Below are positions 1 to 5,163 of a stretch of DNA of 5,163 nt, in pieces. The notes beneath the pieces were generated by a model. The model saw only the letters and a program-made list of their open reading frames with translations, ran no database searches and was not told where the DNA came from. The stretch is from contig JAJYAS010000306.1 of assembly GCA_021779415.1 (NCBI GenBank), positions 1 through 5,163 of the forward strand, read 5' to 3'. The translations under genes were made by a program, and so were the position numbers. Source of the DNA: Bacillota bacterium (lineage in GTDB: Bacteria; Bacillota_B; Desulfitobacteriia; Desulfitobacteriales; Desulfitobacteriaceae). Within the stretch, counting starts at the first letter, position 1, and the number at the start of each line of letters is the position of its first letter.

Positions 1-971
1 GTATCGCCCGCCTGTTCTGTGGCTGTTCCTGCAATTTGCTCGATCGTTTTTGCGATCTCTTCAACTGCTTTGGCCGACTCTTGAGATATTAAGGTCAGTT
101 CTTGTGAAGTGTTAGTAACTTCGCTTGCCGTCTCCAAGAGACGGCTCGTCAATTCCTTCTGATTGATATTAGTTGCCTTAATCACTTGTCCAAGTATTCC
201 GAGCTCATCATTTCTTTCCGTTAAAGCCTTTTTGATCTTATCCAGATCATGTCCTTTATATTTATTCTCATATAAAACCACATCAGTTTGGATTTCTTTG
301 ATTTCTTTCAATTCAATATCTACCCCGATTGCCCCCATGAACTTACCCTTAATAATGATCGGTCGCATTATACTTGTCATTAAAATCTTATTGCCATTCA
401 GGTCATAAATATAGGGTTTAATAATTGAAACCTTGCGACTTTCTTTGGGGGTGGTGTACCATGCTTCAGTATAGACATTCTTGAGAGCAACCACTTCGAT
501 AGTTTCATTTTCCCAATAGACATAAGCCGTAAATTTTCCATCATCATAGTAGTCCGAACCCCTAAAGTTCTCATCTTTGCCATCAAAGGCATTAGGCTCC
601 CAGAAAGTGCTTAAGGAAAGAAGTCCTTTATTCTCCAATAATAGCTTTTTTTGCAGTTCCAGGAGCGCGGTCCTATCCGTATTACCCGCCTTTTTTAGAG
701 TTATCAACTCATCAAGGAGTTGCTTAGAAACCTCCACCCCTCTTTCCAAAACTATGTAATCACCCATAGATCCCCTCTTTAGGAATTCTATGGCAAAGGC
801 TAATAATCTCAAAGTTAGACTTGTGCGAAATAATATAATACCGAGGAAACCCACGATGCTTAAAATAAAAAATATTACCGTGAAATCAGAATTTCTAAAT
901 ACTAACTCTAATAAGACCATAATTCCTGCAAACCCCAAAGGCAGCTTGTTTTGGAAAATTACAGCTTTCAT
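1..971 (-). CDS. Methyl-accepting chemotaxis protein, N-terminal part (3' end outside window)
   Basis: Reading the minus strand from ATG at 971 gives 323 codons without a stop, running off the left edge. Residues about 11-26 and 30-48 are two hydrophobic segments forming a probable membrane hairpin. The positive charges after the second (R49, R55, K65, R66) suggest that the rest is cytoplasmic. Residues about 75-225 resemble the Cache/PDC ligand-binding fold: WEPNAFDGKD at 124-133, SIIKPYIYD at 182-190, and MTSIMRPIIIKGKFMGAIGVDIE at 198-220, a series typical of the membrane-distal half of dCache_1 receptors. NDELG at 254-258 resembles the end of a HAMP domain. From about 270 the helical start of the MCP signalling coiled coil follows (SQELTLISQESAKAVEEIA region). 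The signalling tip and methylation sites lie outside the window. The start is supported by a G-rich Shine-Dalgarno at 979-989. Chemoreceptors pass ligand signals to CheA/CheW; the ligand is unknown. No transmembrane segment follows the Cache-like domain, which is unusual. The family call is firm; the topology is inferred. Confidence 0.9.
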   Translation of the reverse strand, partial: MKAVIFQNKLPLGFAGIMVLLELVFRNSDFTVIFFILSIVGFLGIILFRTSLTLRLLAFAIEFLKRGSMGDYIVLERGVEVSKQLLDELITLKKAGNTDRTALLELQKKLLLENKGLLSLSTFWEPNAFDGKDENFRGSDYYDDGKFTAYVYWENETIEVVALKNVYTEAWYTTPKESRKVSIIKPYIYDLNGNKILMTSIMRPIIIKGKFMGAIGVDIELKEIKEIQTDVVLYENKYKGHDLDKIKKALTERNDELGILGQVIKATNINQKELTSRLLETASEVTNTSQELTLISQESAKAVEEIAKTIEQIAGTATEQAGD

Positions 972-1208: not shown

Positions 1209-2591
1209 TTATCCTTCAATGGGTTTAAGCTTACAAAGAAAATGACGCAGCACCTTTGGCTCATAGGTAAATTCTAGGCCTTTGACTTGGTCTCGACGTT
1301 CCCAAATCGTTGCTAAAGCATCGACAACCACATCCATATGGTTGTCAGTGTAGACTCGGCGTGGAATGGTCAAACGCATAAACTCCACGCCGGCTTTCTT
1401 TTGCGTCCCAGTCTCAGGATCGCGACCCAGCAATAGGGAACCTACTTCTACCGGGCGGACCCCCGCCTCAAGGTATAGTTCATTACTAAGAGCTTGGGCT
1501 GGGAATTGTTCTGCGGGAATGTGGGGGAGAAATTGACCAGCATCTACGAAGACGGCATGCCCACCTACCGGCCATTGGATTGGAATGCCACGCTTACGCA
1601 GTTCATTACCCAGGTATTCCACTTGTCCAATGCGGCTTTCGAGATAATCTACATCTAAGCCTTCATATAAACCAACCGCCAAACATTCCATATCCCGCCC
1701 GGAAAGTCCCCCATAAGTAATGAATCCTTCCATGGGTACGCAGCTCGTACTCGCCTTTTGGTACATTTCTTCTTCATTTTTGATACCAATCAAGCCACCC
1801 ATGTTCACAATGGCGTCTTTCTTGGCACTCATCGTAAAGTAATCGCCCATGTCATACATTTCTTTAACAATCTCTTGAATATCCTTATTTTCATAGCCCG
1901 GTTCACGCTTCTTAATAAAATAGGCGTTCTCAGCAAAACGCGCAGAGTCAATGTCGATCTTCAAAGAGTATTTATCAGCAATTTTCCGAACTCCACGGAA
2001 ATTTTCCATAGAAAGTGGTTGTCCGCCCGAGGAGTTACAGGTTACCGTCGCAATGATGAAAGCAATGTTTTCAGGACCTTTTTCTATGATAAAATTCTCT
2101 AGTTTTTCTAAATCAAAGTTACCCTTAAAAGGGTGCTCTTTTTGGGTATCGAAAGCATCCTCAATCACAAGGTTCACGGGAATCATACCGTTCATCTCGA
2201 TATGAGCCATCGTTGTATCAAAGTGCATATTCCCCAGAACGAATTGACCGTTGTGTTTCTTTAAATGAGGAAAAAGAACTTGTTCTGCTCCGCGGCCTTG
2301 GTGCGTAGGAATGACATAGGCATAACCGAAGATATCCTGCACTGCATCTTTGACTTTAAAGAAGGATTTACTGCCGGCATAGGACTCATCTCCGAGCATC
2401 AAGGCAGACCACTGTTTGTCACTCATCGCACCGGTGCCACTATCAGTGAGCAGGTCAATGTAAACATCTTCTGCTTTTAAAAGAAACGGGTTATACCCAG
2501 CTTCCTGAAGTTTTATCTGACGCTCTGCACGGGAAATCATGCGAATGGATTCCACCATTTTGATCCGATAAGGTTCTGCTTTTCTGGCCAC
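1209..2591 (-). CDS. tnaA: Tryptophanase (tryptophan indole-lyase), PLP-dependent
   Basis: This 460-residue protein catalyses beta-elimination of L-tryptophan to indole, pyruvate and ammonium in the cytoplasm. It aligns along its full length with tryptophanase and tyrosine phenol-lyase, fold-type I PLP enzymes. The PLP Schiff-base lysine is K258 in MSAKKDA (254-260). The pyridine-nitrogen aspartate is D215 in [12 protein letters not shown], the catalytic tyrosine is Y71 in GDESYAG, and the carboxylate-binding arginine is R406 in [17 protein letters not shown] is at 96-104. Specificity points to tryptophan: H450 in VLRHF matches E. coli TnaA His463, where tyrosine phenol-lyase has Phe, and VEVG at 381-384 lacks the Arg381 that binds the phenol in tyrosine phenol-lyase. 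The start is GTG with Shine-Dalgarno GGAGG at 2601-2605, nine bases away. The protein is slightly shorter than the 471-residue E. coli enzyme because a loop near residue 112 is shorter. A perfect sigma-54 promoter lies upstream and a TyrR-like activator gene precedes it. No tryptophan permease gene or TnaC-type leader is seen. Confidence 0.95.
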
Positions 2592-2600
2592 TGTAAAGTT

Positions 2601-2608
2601 CCTCCCCC
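2601..2608 (-). promoter_or_regulatory. Ribosome binding site fixing the GTG start of tnaA
   Basis: The minus strand reads GGGGGAGG, ending nine bases before the GTG at 2589-2591. There is no nearby ATG that aligns with the family N-terminus, so this site supports the non-ATG start. Confidence 0.8.
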
Positions 2609-2654
2609 GATTTTAACTTATTTTAGATTACAACTCTTATAGATTAAAAAATAA

Positions 2655-2670
2655 TGCAAAATGCGTGCCA
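2655..2670 (-). promoter_or_regulatory. Sigma-54 (-24/-12) promoter of tnaA
   Basis: The minus strand reads TGGCACGCATTTTGCA. This is TGGCAC, five bases, then TTGCA, a full match to the sigma-54 consensus, with the correct spacing between the GG and GC pairs. Transcription should begin near 2644, leaving a leader of about 53 bases. That leader has no tryptophan codon and no credible leader peptide, so TnaC-type attenuation as in E. coli is unlikely. Sigma-54 promoters strictly require an AAA+ activator, and the gene directly upstream encodes one. Confidence 0.9.
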
Positions 2671-2751
2671 ACCAAAACAACCGATTCCAACGCCGGATAT
2701 GTAACTAGATGCTACGAATTAATCGAATATCACGTCTTAAGATGATAAAGT

Positions 2752-2796
2752 AAAGTGGCAAGAAATCTTATCAATGATAAAATTTCTTGCCACTTT
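2752..2796 (-). terminator. Hairpin terminator after the TyrR-like gene
   Basis: Arms 2752-2766 and 2782-2796 form a perfect 15-base-pair stem (core AAGTGGCAAGAAAT). After one mismatch, five more pairs follow, closed by a three-base loop. It starts eight bases past the activator's stop codon and is followed on the minus strand by T-rich ACTTTATC. A factor-independent terminator is the simplest reading. Its centre also lies about 130 bases upstream of the predicted tnaA transcription start, within the usual distance of an upstream activator site, so a DNA-binding role is possible too. Confidence 0.75.
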
Positions 2797-2803
2797 CCAA
2801 TAA

Positions 2804-4084
2804 CTAGTCATTCCCAATTCCATAACTTTTCATTTTGTTCAAAATGGTTGTATTGGAAACTCCGAGTATTCTTCCCGCTTTTCTTGAAGATGAATTAGTT
2901 TCCAAAACGCGCATGAGAACTTGTTTTTCAACGTCCCTCACAATCTCTTTTAAGGTAGGCCATTCTTTTTCTACCGGAATCTCTAGTTTAAAATTCCCCA
3001 CCTCACTTTTCAAAATTTGGCGGGCAGAGACCAAATCCGTCCACTCATAGAAAAGGCGGGGCGTAATTTCATTGGAATCCATGACGTTGATAATGCGTTC
3101 AAGAGTGTTTTCAAGCTGTCGAACATTTCCTGGCCAGAGTTGAATCATTAACAAGTCCATGCTCTCCTTCGTTACGTGAATCTCGGGTTTTCCCAACTTT
3201 TCTGAAATCTTGCGAATCAGGTGCTGGACGATCAGCGGAATATCCTCAGAACGTTCCCGAAGAGGGGGAATCCGCAAAGGGATAACATTTAAGCGATAAT
3301 AGAGGTCTTCCCGAAATTTTCCCGTTTGGATCATTTCTTCCAGGTTACAGTGTGTTGCAGCAATAATACGAACATCCACCGGTAATTCCTTTGTTCCCCC
3401 AATCCGGCGGATTATGTTTTCTTGCAAAACCCGAAGTAACCGAACCTGAACCTGCGTTGGAATCTCTCCGATTTCATCCAAAAAGAGGGTACCTTGATCC
3501 GCTTGCTCAAAAAGCCCTTTTTTCCCCCCTTTTATTGCCCCTGTAAATGAGCCTTCCTCATAGCCAAAGAGTTCACTTTCCAGCAAGCTATCTGGTAATG
3601 CTGCGCAATTGATCGGAATAAAAGGAGCCCCCGCCCGCAAGCTTTCCATATGAATAGCTCGTGCAAATAGCTCTTTCCCAGTTCCGCTTTCCCCGCGCAA
3701 TAAGACTGTTGAGTTTCCTTTAGCAACCATTTTCGCGGTTTCAACAACATGACGCATCTTTGCGCTCTGGTAAACAATCCCTTCGAACGCTATTAAATGT
3801 TTCTTTCGGTCCATTTTTGAAATAATCTCTTTTAACCCATTTTCCCGCTCTTCATATGGCATCTGATCCCTTAATGTTACAAGAAGAACCCCTTTAACCT
3901 CTTCTAAATTCTTTATTAGACGTTGAACTTGTCCATCCGAAGTACAACGAAATTTAATAAACATGCCCTGATCCGGAATGACTTCCATTCCAATCTTATC
4001 AACCCTATTTTTCTCGCACCCCTCAAAGATCTCCATCCCTAAACCCAAGCGATCTTGGAAATCAATCTGAATCACACGTTCCAT
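2804..4084 (-). CDS. TyrR-like sigma-54-dependent transcriptional activator (ACT, AAA+, HTH)
   Basis: This 426-residue regulator probably senses an aromatic amino acid and activates sigma-54 promoters. Residues about 2-72 form an ACT domain (DRLGLGMEIFEG at 11-22), like the amino-acid-binding N-terminus of TyrR. Residues about 100-345 are the AAA+ domain: Walker A GESGTGKE at 131-138, sigma-54-contacting loop GSFTGA at 178-183, Walker B GTLFLDE at 198-204, arginine-finger region FREDLYYRLN at 258-267, and GNVRQLEN at 319-326. Residues about 398-422 are a TyrR-type helix-turn-helix (SSRKAGRILGVSNTTILNKM). The roughly 25-residue linker leaves no room for the PAS domain of E. coli TyrR (513 residues). 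The ATG at 4084 is chosen because GGGGAGGT lies at 4089-4096 and the protein then begins like TyrR; a TTG at 4111 would add nine unsupported residues. Perfect sigma-54 promoters lie on both sides, before tnaA and ridA, so these are its likely targets. The effector (Trp, Tyr or Phe) is not known. Confidence 0.9.
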   Translation of the reverse strand: MERVIQIDFQDRLGLGMEIFEGCEKNRVDKIGMEVIPDQGMFIKFRCTSDGQVQRLIKNLEEVKGVLLVTLRDQMPYEERENGLKEIISKMDRKKHLIAFEGIVYQSAKMRHVVETAKMVAKGNSTVLLRGESGTGKELFARAIHMESLRAGAPFIPINCAALPDSLLESELFGYEEGSFTGAIKGGKKGLFEQADQGTLFLDEIGEIPTQVQVRLLRVLQENIIRRIGGTKELPVDVRIIAATHCNLEEMIQTGKFREDLYYRLNVIPLRIPPLRERSEDIPLIVQHLIRKISEKLGKPEIHVTKESMDLLMIQLWPGNVRQLENTLERIINVMDSNEITPRLFYEWTDLVSARQILKSEVGNFKLEIPVEKEWPTLKEIVRDVEKQVLMRVLETNSSSRKAGRILGVSNTTILNKMKSYGIGND

Positions 4085-4088
4085 TGCT

Positions 4089-4096
4089 ACCTCCCC
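4089..4096 (-). promoter_or_regulatory. Ribosome binding site fixing the start of the TyrR-like gene
   Basis: The minus strand reads GGGGAGGT, with GGAGG ending five bases before ATG 4082-4084. The upstream in-frame TTG at 4109-4111 would place this site inside the coding region and has no comparable site of its own. Confidence 0.8.
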
Positions 4097-4147
4097 TGTA
4101 ACACCTGTCAAGTAAAGAATACCAGAAAATATTTAATTAGTCTATAA

Positions 4148-4176
4148 ATTATATCATACATGCACTCTCATGACCT
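4148..4176 (-). promoter_or_regulatory. Candidate sigma-A promoter of the TyrR-like gene
   Basis: On the minus strand a perfect TATAAT (4148-4153) is preceded by TGA (4154-4156), forming an extended -10. A weak -35, AGGTCA (4171-4176), lies 17 bases upstream. Transcription would start near 4141, giving a leader of about 57 bases. An extended -10 compensates for a poor -35. The activator would thus be made by the housekeeping polymerase while its targets use sigma-54. Confidence 0.6.
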
Positions 4177-4226
4177 TGTACAAAATAAAAGCAGTATCCT
4201 AATCACTTAACCTTCCAATTTCTTGC

Positions 4227-4255
4227 TTGGTTATTCTCGCAACATCAGTTATACT
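4227..4255 (+). promoter_or_regulatory. Possible sigma-A-like promoter upstream of ridA
   Basis: TTGGTT (4227-4232) and TATACT (4250-4255) are spaced by 17 bases. The -10 matches at five of six positions, but the -35 is only partial. It would start near 4262, before the sigma-54 promoter, and could give basal ridA expression. Its -10 is embedded in the inverted repeat at 4244-4258. It may be fortuitous in this AT-rich region. Confidence 0.3.
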
Positions 4256-4258
4256 GAT
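4244..4258. promoter_or_regulatory. Short inverted repeat, possible operator
   Basis: ATCAGT-TAT-ACTGAT has six-base arms around a three-base centre. It ends 13 bases before the -24 element of the ridA sigma-54 promoter and covers the -10 of the possible sigma-A-like promoter. That position suits a repressor site better than a sigma-54 enhancer, which normally sits 80-150 bases upstream. The binding protein is unknown. Confidence 0.35.
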
Positions 4259-4271
4259 ACTAGTCTTGTCA

Positions 4272-4287
4272 TGGCACATAAATTGCA
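4272..4287 (+). promoter_or_regulatory. Sigma-54 (-24/-12) promoter of ridA
   Basis: The sequence TGGCACATAAATTGCA is a full match to TGGCAC-N5-TTGCA. The predicted transcription start is near 4297-4298, right at the Shine-Dalgarno AAGGAGGT (4298-4305), so the leader would be only about 15 bases. It points away from the neighbouring TyrR-like activator gene and has the same -24 and -12 blocks as the tnaA promoter. Confidence 0.85.
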
Positions 4288-4297
4288 TGAAAATCTC

Positions 4298-4305
4298 AAG
4301 GAGGT
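4298..4305 (+). promoter_or_regulatory. Ribosome binding site fixing the ridA start
   Basis: AAGGAGGT is a near-perfect anti-16S match, with GGAGG ending eight bases before ATG 4313. It rules against an in-frame TTG at 4223, which would lie upstream of the sigma-54 promoter and add 30 residues foreign to the family. Confidence 0.85.
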
Positions 4306-4312
4306 CGATCCC

Positions 4313-4693
4313 ATGAATAAACAAATCGTTAATACTCAAAACGCACCTGCGGCCATTGGCCCTTATTCCCAAGGGGTTAAGGTAGGAAATCTAATTTTTA
4401 CATCTGGACAACTTCCTCTAAATCCGCAAAGTGGAGAATTGGTCGCTGATATTGAGGGCGCAACCAAGCAATCCTTAGATAATGTCAAAGCGATTCTAGA
4501 ATCTGAAGGCGCCAGCATGGATAAAGTCGTAAAAACTGTCGTTTTCCTACGGGACATGAATGACTTTGCTGCGATGAATGCAGTTTACGCCACCTATTTC
4601 CCGAGTAACCCACCTGCCCGCTCCGCTGTACAAGTCGCGCGCTTGCCAAAGGACGCTATCCTGGAAATTGAGGCAATTGCTCTTGCCGAGTAG
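4313..4693 (+). CDS. ridA: RidA family 2-iminobutanoate/2-iminopropanoate deaminase
   Basis: This 126-residue protein is a full-length member of the RidA (YjgF/YER057c/UK114) family, normally 120-130 residues and trimeric in the cytoplasm. RidA hydrolyses reactive enamine/imine products of PLP enzymes, such as 2-aminoacrylate, to 2-keto acids and ammonium, protecting other PLP enzymes from damage. Archetypal RidA features are present: NAPAAIGPYSQG at 10-21, SGQLPLNP at 31-38, SLDNVKAIL at 54-62, the imine-carboxylate-binding arginine R103 in PARSAVQVARLP (E. coli Arg105), and E120 in LEIEAIA. The N-terminus aligns with E. coli RidA without gaps, confirming ATG 4313. It is transcribed away from the TyrR-like activator, with a perfect sigma-54 promoter directly ahead and a strong palindromic terminator behind. 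It is therefore a single-gene unit. The neighbouring tryptophanase generates 2-aminoacrylate during catalysis, giving a plausible reason for shared control. Confidence 0.95.
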   Translation: MNKQIVNTQNAPAAIGPYSQGVKVGNLIFTSGQLPLNPQSGELVADIEGATKQSLDNVKAILESEGASMDKVVKTVVFLRDMNDFAAMNAVYATYFPSNPPARSAVQVARLPKDAILEIEAIALAE

Positions 4694-4934: not shown

Positions 4935-5163
4935 ATGACATCGTTAAAAGGGCAGCGGAGTTATTTTTACCCAACACAACCGAACAAGGTTTCCCCAATT
5001 CAGCGTCAAGGAACTCACCCTGTTCAACCACCAATTCCTTCCCCAGCTTCCCAACCCCGGACTCAAACGATGACCCAGCCCAAAGTTCAACCCATAACTC
5101 CGCCTAAAACACAATCCCCAGCTCAATCTGTTACTCCTATTCAGAAACCCCTTCCCTCTTCCG
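4935..5163 (+). CDS. Proline/glutamine-rich protein of unknown function, N-terminal part (3' end outside window)
   Basis: ATG at 4935 follows a Shine-Dalgarno-like AAGGGGGG at 4919-4926 and opens a frame that stays free of stops for the 76 codons to the right edge. The visible part is low complexity: 17 prolines and 12 glutamines in 76 residues, with many Ser and Thr. It has no aspartate or glutamate, and eight Lys/Arg, so it is basic and almost certainly disordered. Repeated PxP and QP pairs occur (QPPIPSPASQP at 31-41, QPITPPKTQSP at 52-62). There is no signal peptide or membrane segment in this portion. The start MTSLKGQRSYFYP is not recognised. Such tails can belong to surface, coat or linker-bearing proteins, but the function cannot be assigned. 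The 50-base palindrome separates it from ridA, so it is probably a separate transcription unit. Confidence 0.7.
   Translation, partial: MTSLKGQRSYFYPTQPNKVSPIQRQGTHPVQPPIPSPASQPRTQTMTQPKVQPITPPKTQSPAQSVTPIQKPLPSS

Follow-up and report, generated by a model that had tools for sequence, protein, structure and literature searches.

The 5,163-nucleotide contig JAJYAS010000306.1 (assembly GCA_021779415.1, a Bacillota bacterium of the Desulfitobacteriaceae), here called the window, very probably carries a one-component sigma-54 switch for aromatic amino acid breakdown, in which a TyrR-like activator, a pair of candidate activator boxes and a sigma-54 promoter would together control tnaA. This gene (1209–2591, minus strand, GTG start) encodes a tryptophanase-type beta-eliminating lyase of 460 aa. 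The gene for the sigma-54 activator (426 aa) is located at 2804–4084, also on the minus strand, and ridA, which encodes a Rid-family enamine/imine deaminase of 126 aa, at 4313–4693 on the plus strand. Promoter and box conservation, gene linkage and domain make-up are taken from sequence comparison, and we infer binding, ligand, RpoN dependence and start sites. The six loci nearest to the window by activator protein (81–83% identity) are all from Desulfosporosinus, so that the window looks Desulfosporosinus-like. Genomes of relatives carry labels beginning with G, and loci labels beginning with L.

The initial annotation reported two perfect matches to TGGCAC-N5-TTGCA, and we found both of them at the positions and on the strands claimed, at 2655–2670 on the minus strand before tnaA (TGGCACGCATTTTGCA) and at 4272–4287 on the plus strand before ridA (TGGCACATAAATTGCA). 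The window contains no further site of this kind, even with up to two mismatches allowed. The chance expectation of about 0.002 given there was also correct, with 0.0016 exact matches expected from base composition and 0.0027 from 3000 dinucleotide shuffles (8 matches in total); a value of 1.16 applies to sites with up to two mismatches and is irrelevant for exact ones.

The sigma-54 (−24/−12) promoter of tnaA at 2655–2670 is strongly supported by its conservation in relatives. We searched for tnaA in 150 genomes, 39 of which gave a match at E ≤ 1e-100, and scored up to 300 bp upstream for the 30 loci retrieved, counting an element when at least 10 of 11 positions fitted. The element was present at 15 of these 30 loci, all of them among the 20 with at least 80% identity, and absent from each of the 10 that are more distant. 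The five close loci without it are those unlinked to the activator, namely those of G022 and G027, in which the activator was not found (in G027 the contig starts 236 bp upstream of tnaA), copies in G035 and G043 located away from the activator, and that of G050. In G050 a related activator (L176, 2447–4195) lies on a contig without tnaA, and the tnaA of this genome has no sigma-54 site.

In the final count, which alone includes L009 and in which the linkage in G018 was inferred (the activator ends one contig, permease and tnaA are on another), a sigma-54 site precedes the tnaA-type gene at 21 of 21 activator-linked loci, window included, versus 0 of 5 unlinked loci. The promoter is therefore conserved beside the TyrR-like activator in related genomes, as the initial annotation had proposed to check, and its reading of both matches as sigma-54 promoters is strongly supported for tnaA and weakly for ridA, as discussed below. 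At the linked tnaA loci the −12 element lies 43–110 nt from the start codon. The activator (E ≤ 1e-110) was found in 17 of 100 relatives, all 17 of which also carry a tnaA match at 80% identity or more, as do 20 of the 100 overall (Fisher p 1.7e-16, kinship ignored). Across 12 whole genomes the looser pattern TGGCAYN5TTGCW gave 20–117 matches per genome versus 1–7 for the reversed control, so that the majority of such sites in this group are probably genuine promoters, and RpoN is encoded in eight of eight relatives tested.

The switch appears to extend to transport in several relatives, where a permease gene lies between activator and tnaA. This gene has its own sigma-54 site in 9/9 loci with readable upstream sequence, versus 0/4 for related permeases placed elsewhere. 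The permease of L004, the one scanned, scored best with the AroP and PheP models, below their curated cut-offs. We consider this AroP/PheP-like permease, with its own sigma-54 site and often with boxes, to belong to the same switch.

The initial annotation described the activator as an ACT-AAA+-HTH protein with a GSFTGA loop, and this architecture was borne out. The protein comprises an ACT domain (approximately residues 1–75), an AAA+ domain with the GSFTGA loop (103–270), a lid and an HTH_50 domain (377–423), with no PAS domain; an alternative in-frame TTG start is present at 4111. The Sigma54_activat model matched with 240.5 bits, and a GAFTGA or GSFTGA loop is present in 21 of 21 aligned activators, including that of the window. 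The GSFTGA variant is counted as sigma-54-compatible in the main text of PMC6615313. The N-terminus was predicted to be an ACT domain in an 80-residue model (predicted local distance difference test score 93), and its best solved match was TyrR (2jhe), both by profile (E 2.8e-4) and by fold (template modelling (TM) score 0.81). The Pfam ACT match of the window protein was below threshold (E 0.012; ACT_4 at 16.8 bits versus a curated cut-off of 27), and ACT_4 was found at E ≤ 1 in 17 of 20 activator N-termini. In a model of the whole protein the AAA+ part was poor (predicted TM score 0.38; TM about 0.28 in the fold search), and only the 80-residue model was relied on. HTH_50 scored 63.2 bits versus a cut-off of 27, and the HTH matched the structure of a TyrR-homologue HTH (1g2h, E 1.2e-5).

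A segment of about 106 residues separates the ACT and AAA+ domains in 16 of the 21 aligned activators, and Pfam PAS was found in it in all three proteins scanned (L004, L010 and L165). This PAS-type segment is absent, at one junction, from the activators of the window, L001, L002, L003 and L174, while close relatives keep it. The window activator is TyrR-like and, having no PAS domain, not a full TyrR. On the tnaA tree, loss of PAS needs three changes on well-supported branches, one of which rests on G027, a genome in which no activator was found and which was entered as not PAS-less; a single origin of the loss is compatible with the activator tree. In one further locus (L169, 5360–7135, G082) the activator gene is broken by a stop codon, by assembly error or decay, and the sigma-54 sites of permease and tnaA are intact.

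In the upstream regions of tnaA we spotted a recurring palindrome of 18 bp, TGRYAA-N6-TTRYCA. The window contains two full-score copies and no others, a distal box at 2775–2792 (TGGCAAGAAATTTTATCA) and a proximal box at 2756–2773 (TGATAAGATTTCTTGCCA), both on the minus strand, 104 and 85 bp upstream of the −24 element, respectively. At a threshold of at least 11 of 12 positions, 38 boxes were found in 20 of the 29 tnaA-type or permease upstream regions with a sigma-54 site, whereas none occurred in the nine without one or in 18 ridA upstream regions, and shuffled upstream sequences contained a box in 1–2% of cases. These counts exclude the L164 permease, for which there is no upstream sequence, and, on the ridA side, the distant types L126 and L131, both of which have a sigma-54 site. 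Exact half-sites occurred 24 times at a spacer of 6, once at a spacer of 11 and never at any other spacer between 2 and 12, and the gap between promoter and nearest box ranged from 38 to 198 bp across 15 tnaA upstream regions. The joint pattern of box, 50–80 bp and promoter gave six matches in 5 of 398 genomes, all before permease or tnaA at this locus, and the reversed control gave none in the 398 genomes; with a gap of 55–85 bp, seven matches were obtained in 6 of 24 chosen genomes, again all at this locus. The pattern was derived from some of these loci and its recovery is partly by construction, so that its absence elsewhere is the informative part. The palindrome has the 18-bp 6-6-6 geometry of the TyrR box and is probably the binding site of the activator.

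The exact match before ridA at 4272–4287 (plus strand) presents a different picture. Among 23 ridA orthologues (window, L102–L121, L001 and L084; the weaker L122–L131 were not counted), an intact sigma-54-like site was found in only three, those of the window, G025 and G004. Activator and ridA stand side by side in nine loci, and the element is intact only in the window and G004; in G001 (one base short), G002, G005, G006, G017, G018 and G029 it is not. The proposal of the initial annotation that ridA, too, is controlled from a sigma-54 promoter of its own is thus not supported by the refuting condition that it set, as the element is not intact in seven of the nine loci that keep the gene order. 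A sigma-A-type promoter-like element (TTGGTT, 17 bp, TATACT) is located at 4227–4255 on the plus strand, and in all 23 orthologues TATACT is preceded, at 17–18 bp, by a hexamer of the TTGG or TTGA type, the −35 element being weak (3–4 of 6 positions). As this element lies upstream, the sigma-54-like match would fall inside the leader of the corresponding ridA transcript. The leader (4262–4312) and those of relatives show a possible short inverted repeat with a variable loop, and shuffled sequences folded less well than the ridA leader in 8 of 23 cases (p ≤ 0.05), of which the window is not one. A leader hairpin as the cause of the sigma-54 look-alike is not supported for the three leaders with the site, which fold no better than shuffles (p 0.42, 0.21 and 0.43).

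The reading in which ridA is nevertheless a direct sigma-54 target through 4272–4287, so that enamine removal would increase along with tryptophan breakdown, seems to us rather unlikely. It can call on an exact match that is too improbable by chance in this composition and on the fact that the three ridA genes with the site form one clade (support 94/82); a single, kept origin of the site is possible, and pure chance is no sufficient dismissal. In G082, G083, G035 and G043, moreover, the activator cluster has a ridA gene after that of the lyase. Tryptophanase can release 2-aminoacrylate, which RidA removes, and ridA is a metabolically fitting neighbour even without a sigma-54 promoter of its own. 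Clustering of RidA and tryptophanase genes has been published (PMC4433059). Set against these points, beside the poor conservation, G025 keeps the element and yielded neither the activator (E ≤ 1e-110) nor tnaA (E ≤ 1e-100), and no activator box precedes any of the 18 ridA genes. Furthermore, the −12 element lies only 26 nt from the start codon in the window (26–28 nt at the three sites) versus 43–110 nt at tnaA, a spacing that would place the first transcribed nucleotide roughly at the beginning of the AAGGAGG ribosome-binding site (4298–4304). We therefore dropped ridA as an equal sigma-54 target on account of the few orthologues with the site, the missing box and the short distance to the start codon; 4272–4287 is probably no working promoter of this switch, and ridA is more likely to be read from its own sigma-A-type promoter. 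The distant ridA-type genes L126 and L131, which also speak for ridA as a target, have sigma-54 sites 52–54 nt before the start codon, and tdcF is presumably a RidA-family gene as well. These two sites may fit the tdcF target that the main text of PMC6615313 lists under DioR.

The lyase scored above the tryptophanase subfamily cut-off (730 versus 285). Among solved structures, tryptophanases match it best (1ax4, E 3.1e-179), with tyrosine phenol-lyases behind them (E 1.7e-156 at best). At positions that we take to set the specificity of the two enzymes it has FDTT, EVGS and RHF, where the tyrosine phenol-lyase compared has FTTT, ERGI and RFF. The lyases of L171 and L172 were considered as tyrosine phenol-lyases and dropped, the best solved match of L171 being 'Tryptophanase 1' (8sij). 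With the start placed 12 nt past the C of the −12 element, the predicted tnaA leader spans 53 nt (2592–2644, minus strand) and, read by eye, contains no ATG and a sole TTG immediately before a stop codon. The E. coli tna operon, which serves tryptophan breakdown with the same enzyme type, is controlled by CRP and by TnaC leader attenuation, whereas here a sigma-54 activator would act on a promoter with this short leader. With neither an ATG nor the length needed for a leader peptide of the TnaC kind, this leader makes TnaC-type control unlikely, in agreement with the different control logic that the initial annotation had proposed.

Several observations weigh against the switch as we describe it. 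The window activator falls short of the TyrR equivalog NF008085 (314.4 bits versus a cut-off of 576) and scores higher with the PrdR and NifA models than with that of TyrR, as the AAA+ part dominates the score. Nine of the 29 sigma-54-type upstream regions lack a box at the threshold used, some of the loci in the count are those in which the box was first noticed by eye, and the loci are related. The strict joint pattern is present in 5 of 17 activator-bearing genomes and misses 12, because box letters and spacing vary, and is thus specific and not sensitive. The evidence for RpoN comes from relatives and not from the genome of the window itself, tryptophan is proposed as the ligand by analogy with the TyrR family, and a consensus promoter scan, which needs 4 of 6 positions, does not list the sigma-A-type element of ridA. 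The lyase, finally, remains below both tryptophanase equivalog cut-offs (679 versus 826 and 648 versus 750).

This last point bears on the reading in which the lyase is a tyrosine phenol-lyase and the switch serves tyrosine breakdown, as it scores below the equivalog cut-off of that enzyme too (603 versus 721). TyrR-like activators are described as responding to several aromatic amino acids in PMC4894688 and in the abstract of PMC4374768. We nevertheless regard tyrosine breakdown as highly improbable, given the higher tryptophanase score (679 versus 603 bits), the order of the solved relatives and the residues at the three motifs, whose diagnostic value we presume. A further reading concerns the boxes, which in the window form one inverted repeat able to fold into a hairpin of 20 pairs with a T-rich tail behind it, a terminator-like structure of the activator gene at 2753–2795 (minus strand). 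Part of their conservation could reflect termination, and the boxes might be merely this terminator, with the activator binding elsewhere or acting from solution. However, spacer-6 boxes are also found upstream of tnaA where it lies downstream of the permease gene (L004, L165, L168, L169 and L170), which counts against termination alone; L010 has three boxes, upstream regions without a sigma-54 site have none, and the layout of half-sites and spacer matches the TyrR box. Boxes serving termination only are thus very unlikely, and we retain them as candidate binding sites of the activator.

The proposed switch differs in its details from the known systems with which it can be compared. E. coli TyrR shares with the window activator the ACT fold (2jhe as best match), the TyrR-type HTH and the 6-6-6 box geometry, and differs from it in having a PAS domain and making no use of sigma-54, whereas the window activator is PAS-less and of the sigma-54 type. 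That E. coli TyrR works without sigma-54, as the initial annotation held, is stated in a passage of PMC3162934, according to which TyrR and some others lost sigma-54 contact; its box, TGTAAA-N6-TTTACA, is cited in PMC4894688. The same paper describes GcsR of Pseudomonas aeruginosa as a TyrR-like, RpoN-dependent activator of the gcs2 operon. GcsR is likewise an enhancer-binding protein with an amino-acid catabolic target, whose sigma-54 site is preceded by 18-bp palindromic repeats, but its target is glycine cleavage, its inducer glycine and its box TGTAACG-N4-CGTTCCG, compared with tnaA and TGRYAA-N6-TTRYCA here, and the window protein has no PAS domain. In Clostridiales, sigma-54 regulons of amino-acid fermentation have been reconstructed, among them those of PrdR, OrdR, CdsR, MdeR and DioR (main text of PMC6615313), where one-component activators, with ACT among their domains, mostly adjoin their targets as in the window. 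Unlike here, the printed Table 1 of that paper has no tnaA target, and a word search of its main text, the supplement being outside its scope, did not find 'tnaA', 'tryptophan' or 'TyrR'; 'TyrR', 'tryptophan', 'tnaA' and 'RidA' are likewise absent from PMC12316311 by word search. Among the literature matches listed, in a search that mostly left subscription papers outside, none stated sigma-54 control of tryptophanase. Sigma-54-dependent TyrR-like activators of amino-acid breakdown are thus already known, and the PAS-less activators are a modest variation.

In the mechanism that we propose, the ACT domain of the TyrR-like activator would sense an aromatic amino acid, tryptophan being the most likely one, and the protein would bind the paired 18-bp boxes at 2756–2792. 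Its AAA+ ring would then contact the sigma-54 RNA polymerase waiting at 2655–2670 and open the promoter, and the tryptophanase made would split tryptophan into indole, pyruvate and ammonia. It is tempting to speculate further on a sigma-54 regulon for indole formation. The ACT-only activator, PAS-less in five Desulfosporosinus-type genomes including that of the window, would link the detection of tryptophan straight to the AAA+ ring and, in relatives, would switch on both permease and tryptophanase; in the clade of the window ridA would have been recruited as an additional target, with enamine detoxification rising alongside tryptophan breakdown. We hold this wider scheme to be unlikely.

The remainder of the window comprises an MCP-like receptor gene (methyl-accepting chemotaxis protein; 3–971, minus strand), truncated by the window edge, and the beginning of a proline/glutamine-rich open reading frame (4935–5163), which lies 3' of ridA here as in several relatives; no Rfam matches were found in the window. 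The window MCP gene has no upstream sigma-54 site. One is present, without an activator box, upstream of the MCP-like gene neighbouring tnaA in L006 (8954–8969) and in L174, in the latter about 267 nt before a start codon whose position was guessed. In the closest relative by ridA (98%; L162, 4718–7152, G025) the MCP gene adjoins ridA and the activator–tnaA pair is absent, having been either lost in G025 or gained in the line of the window.

The two matches in the window, one a perfect and conserved promoter (tnaA) and the other equally perfect and poorly conserved (ridA), warn against taking motif perfection as evidence. The PAS-less activators represent a natural minimal case for how ACT alone might gate a sigma-54 AAA+ ring, and the locus offers a defined activator, a candidate binding site and a promoter for testing. 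We predict that tryptophanase, and hence indole, would be under sigma-54 control in these anaerobes, unlike the logic of E. coli.

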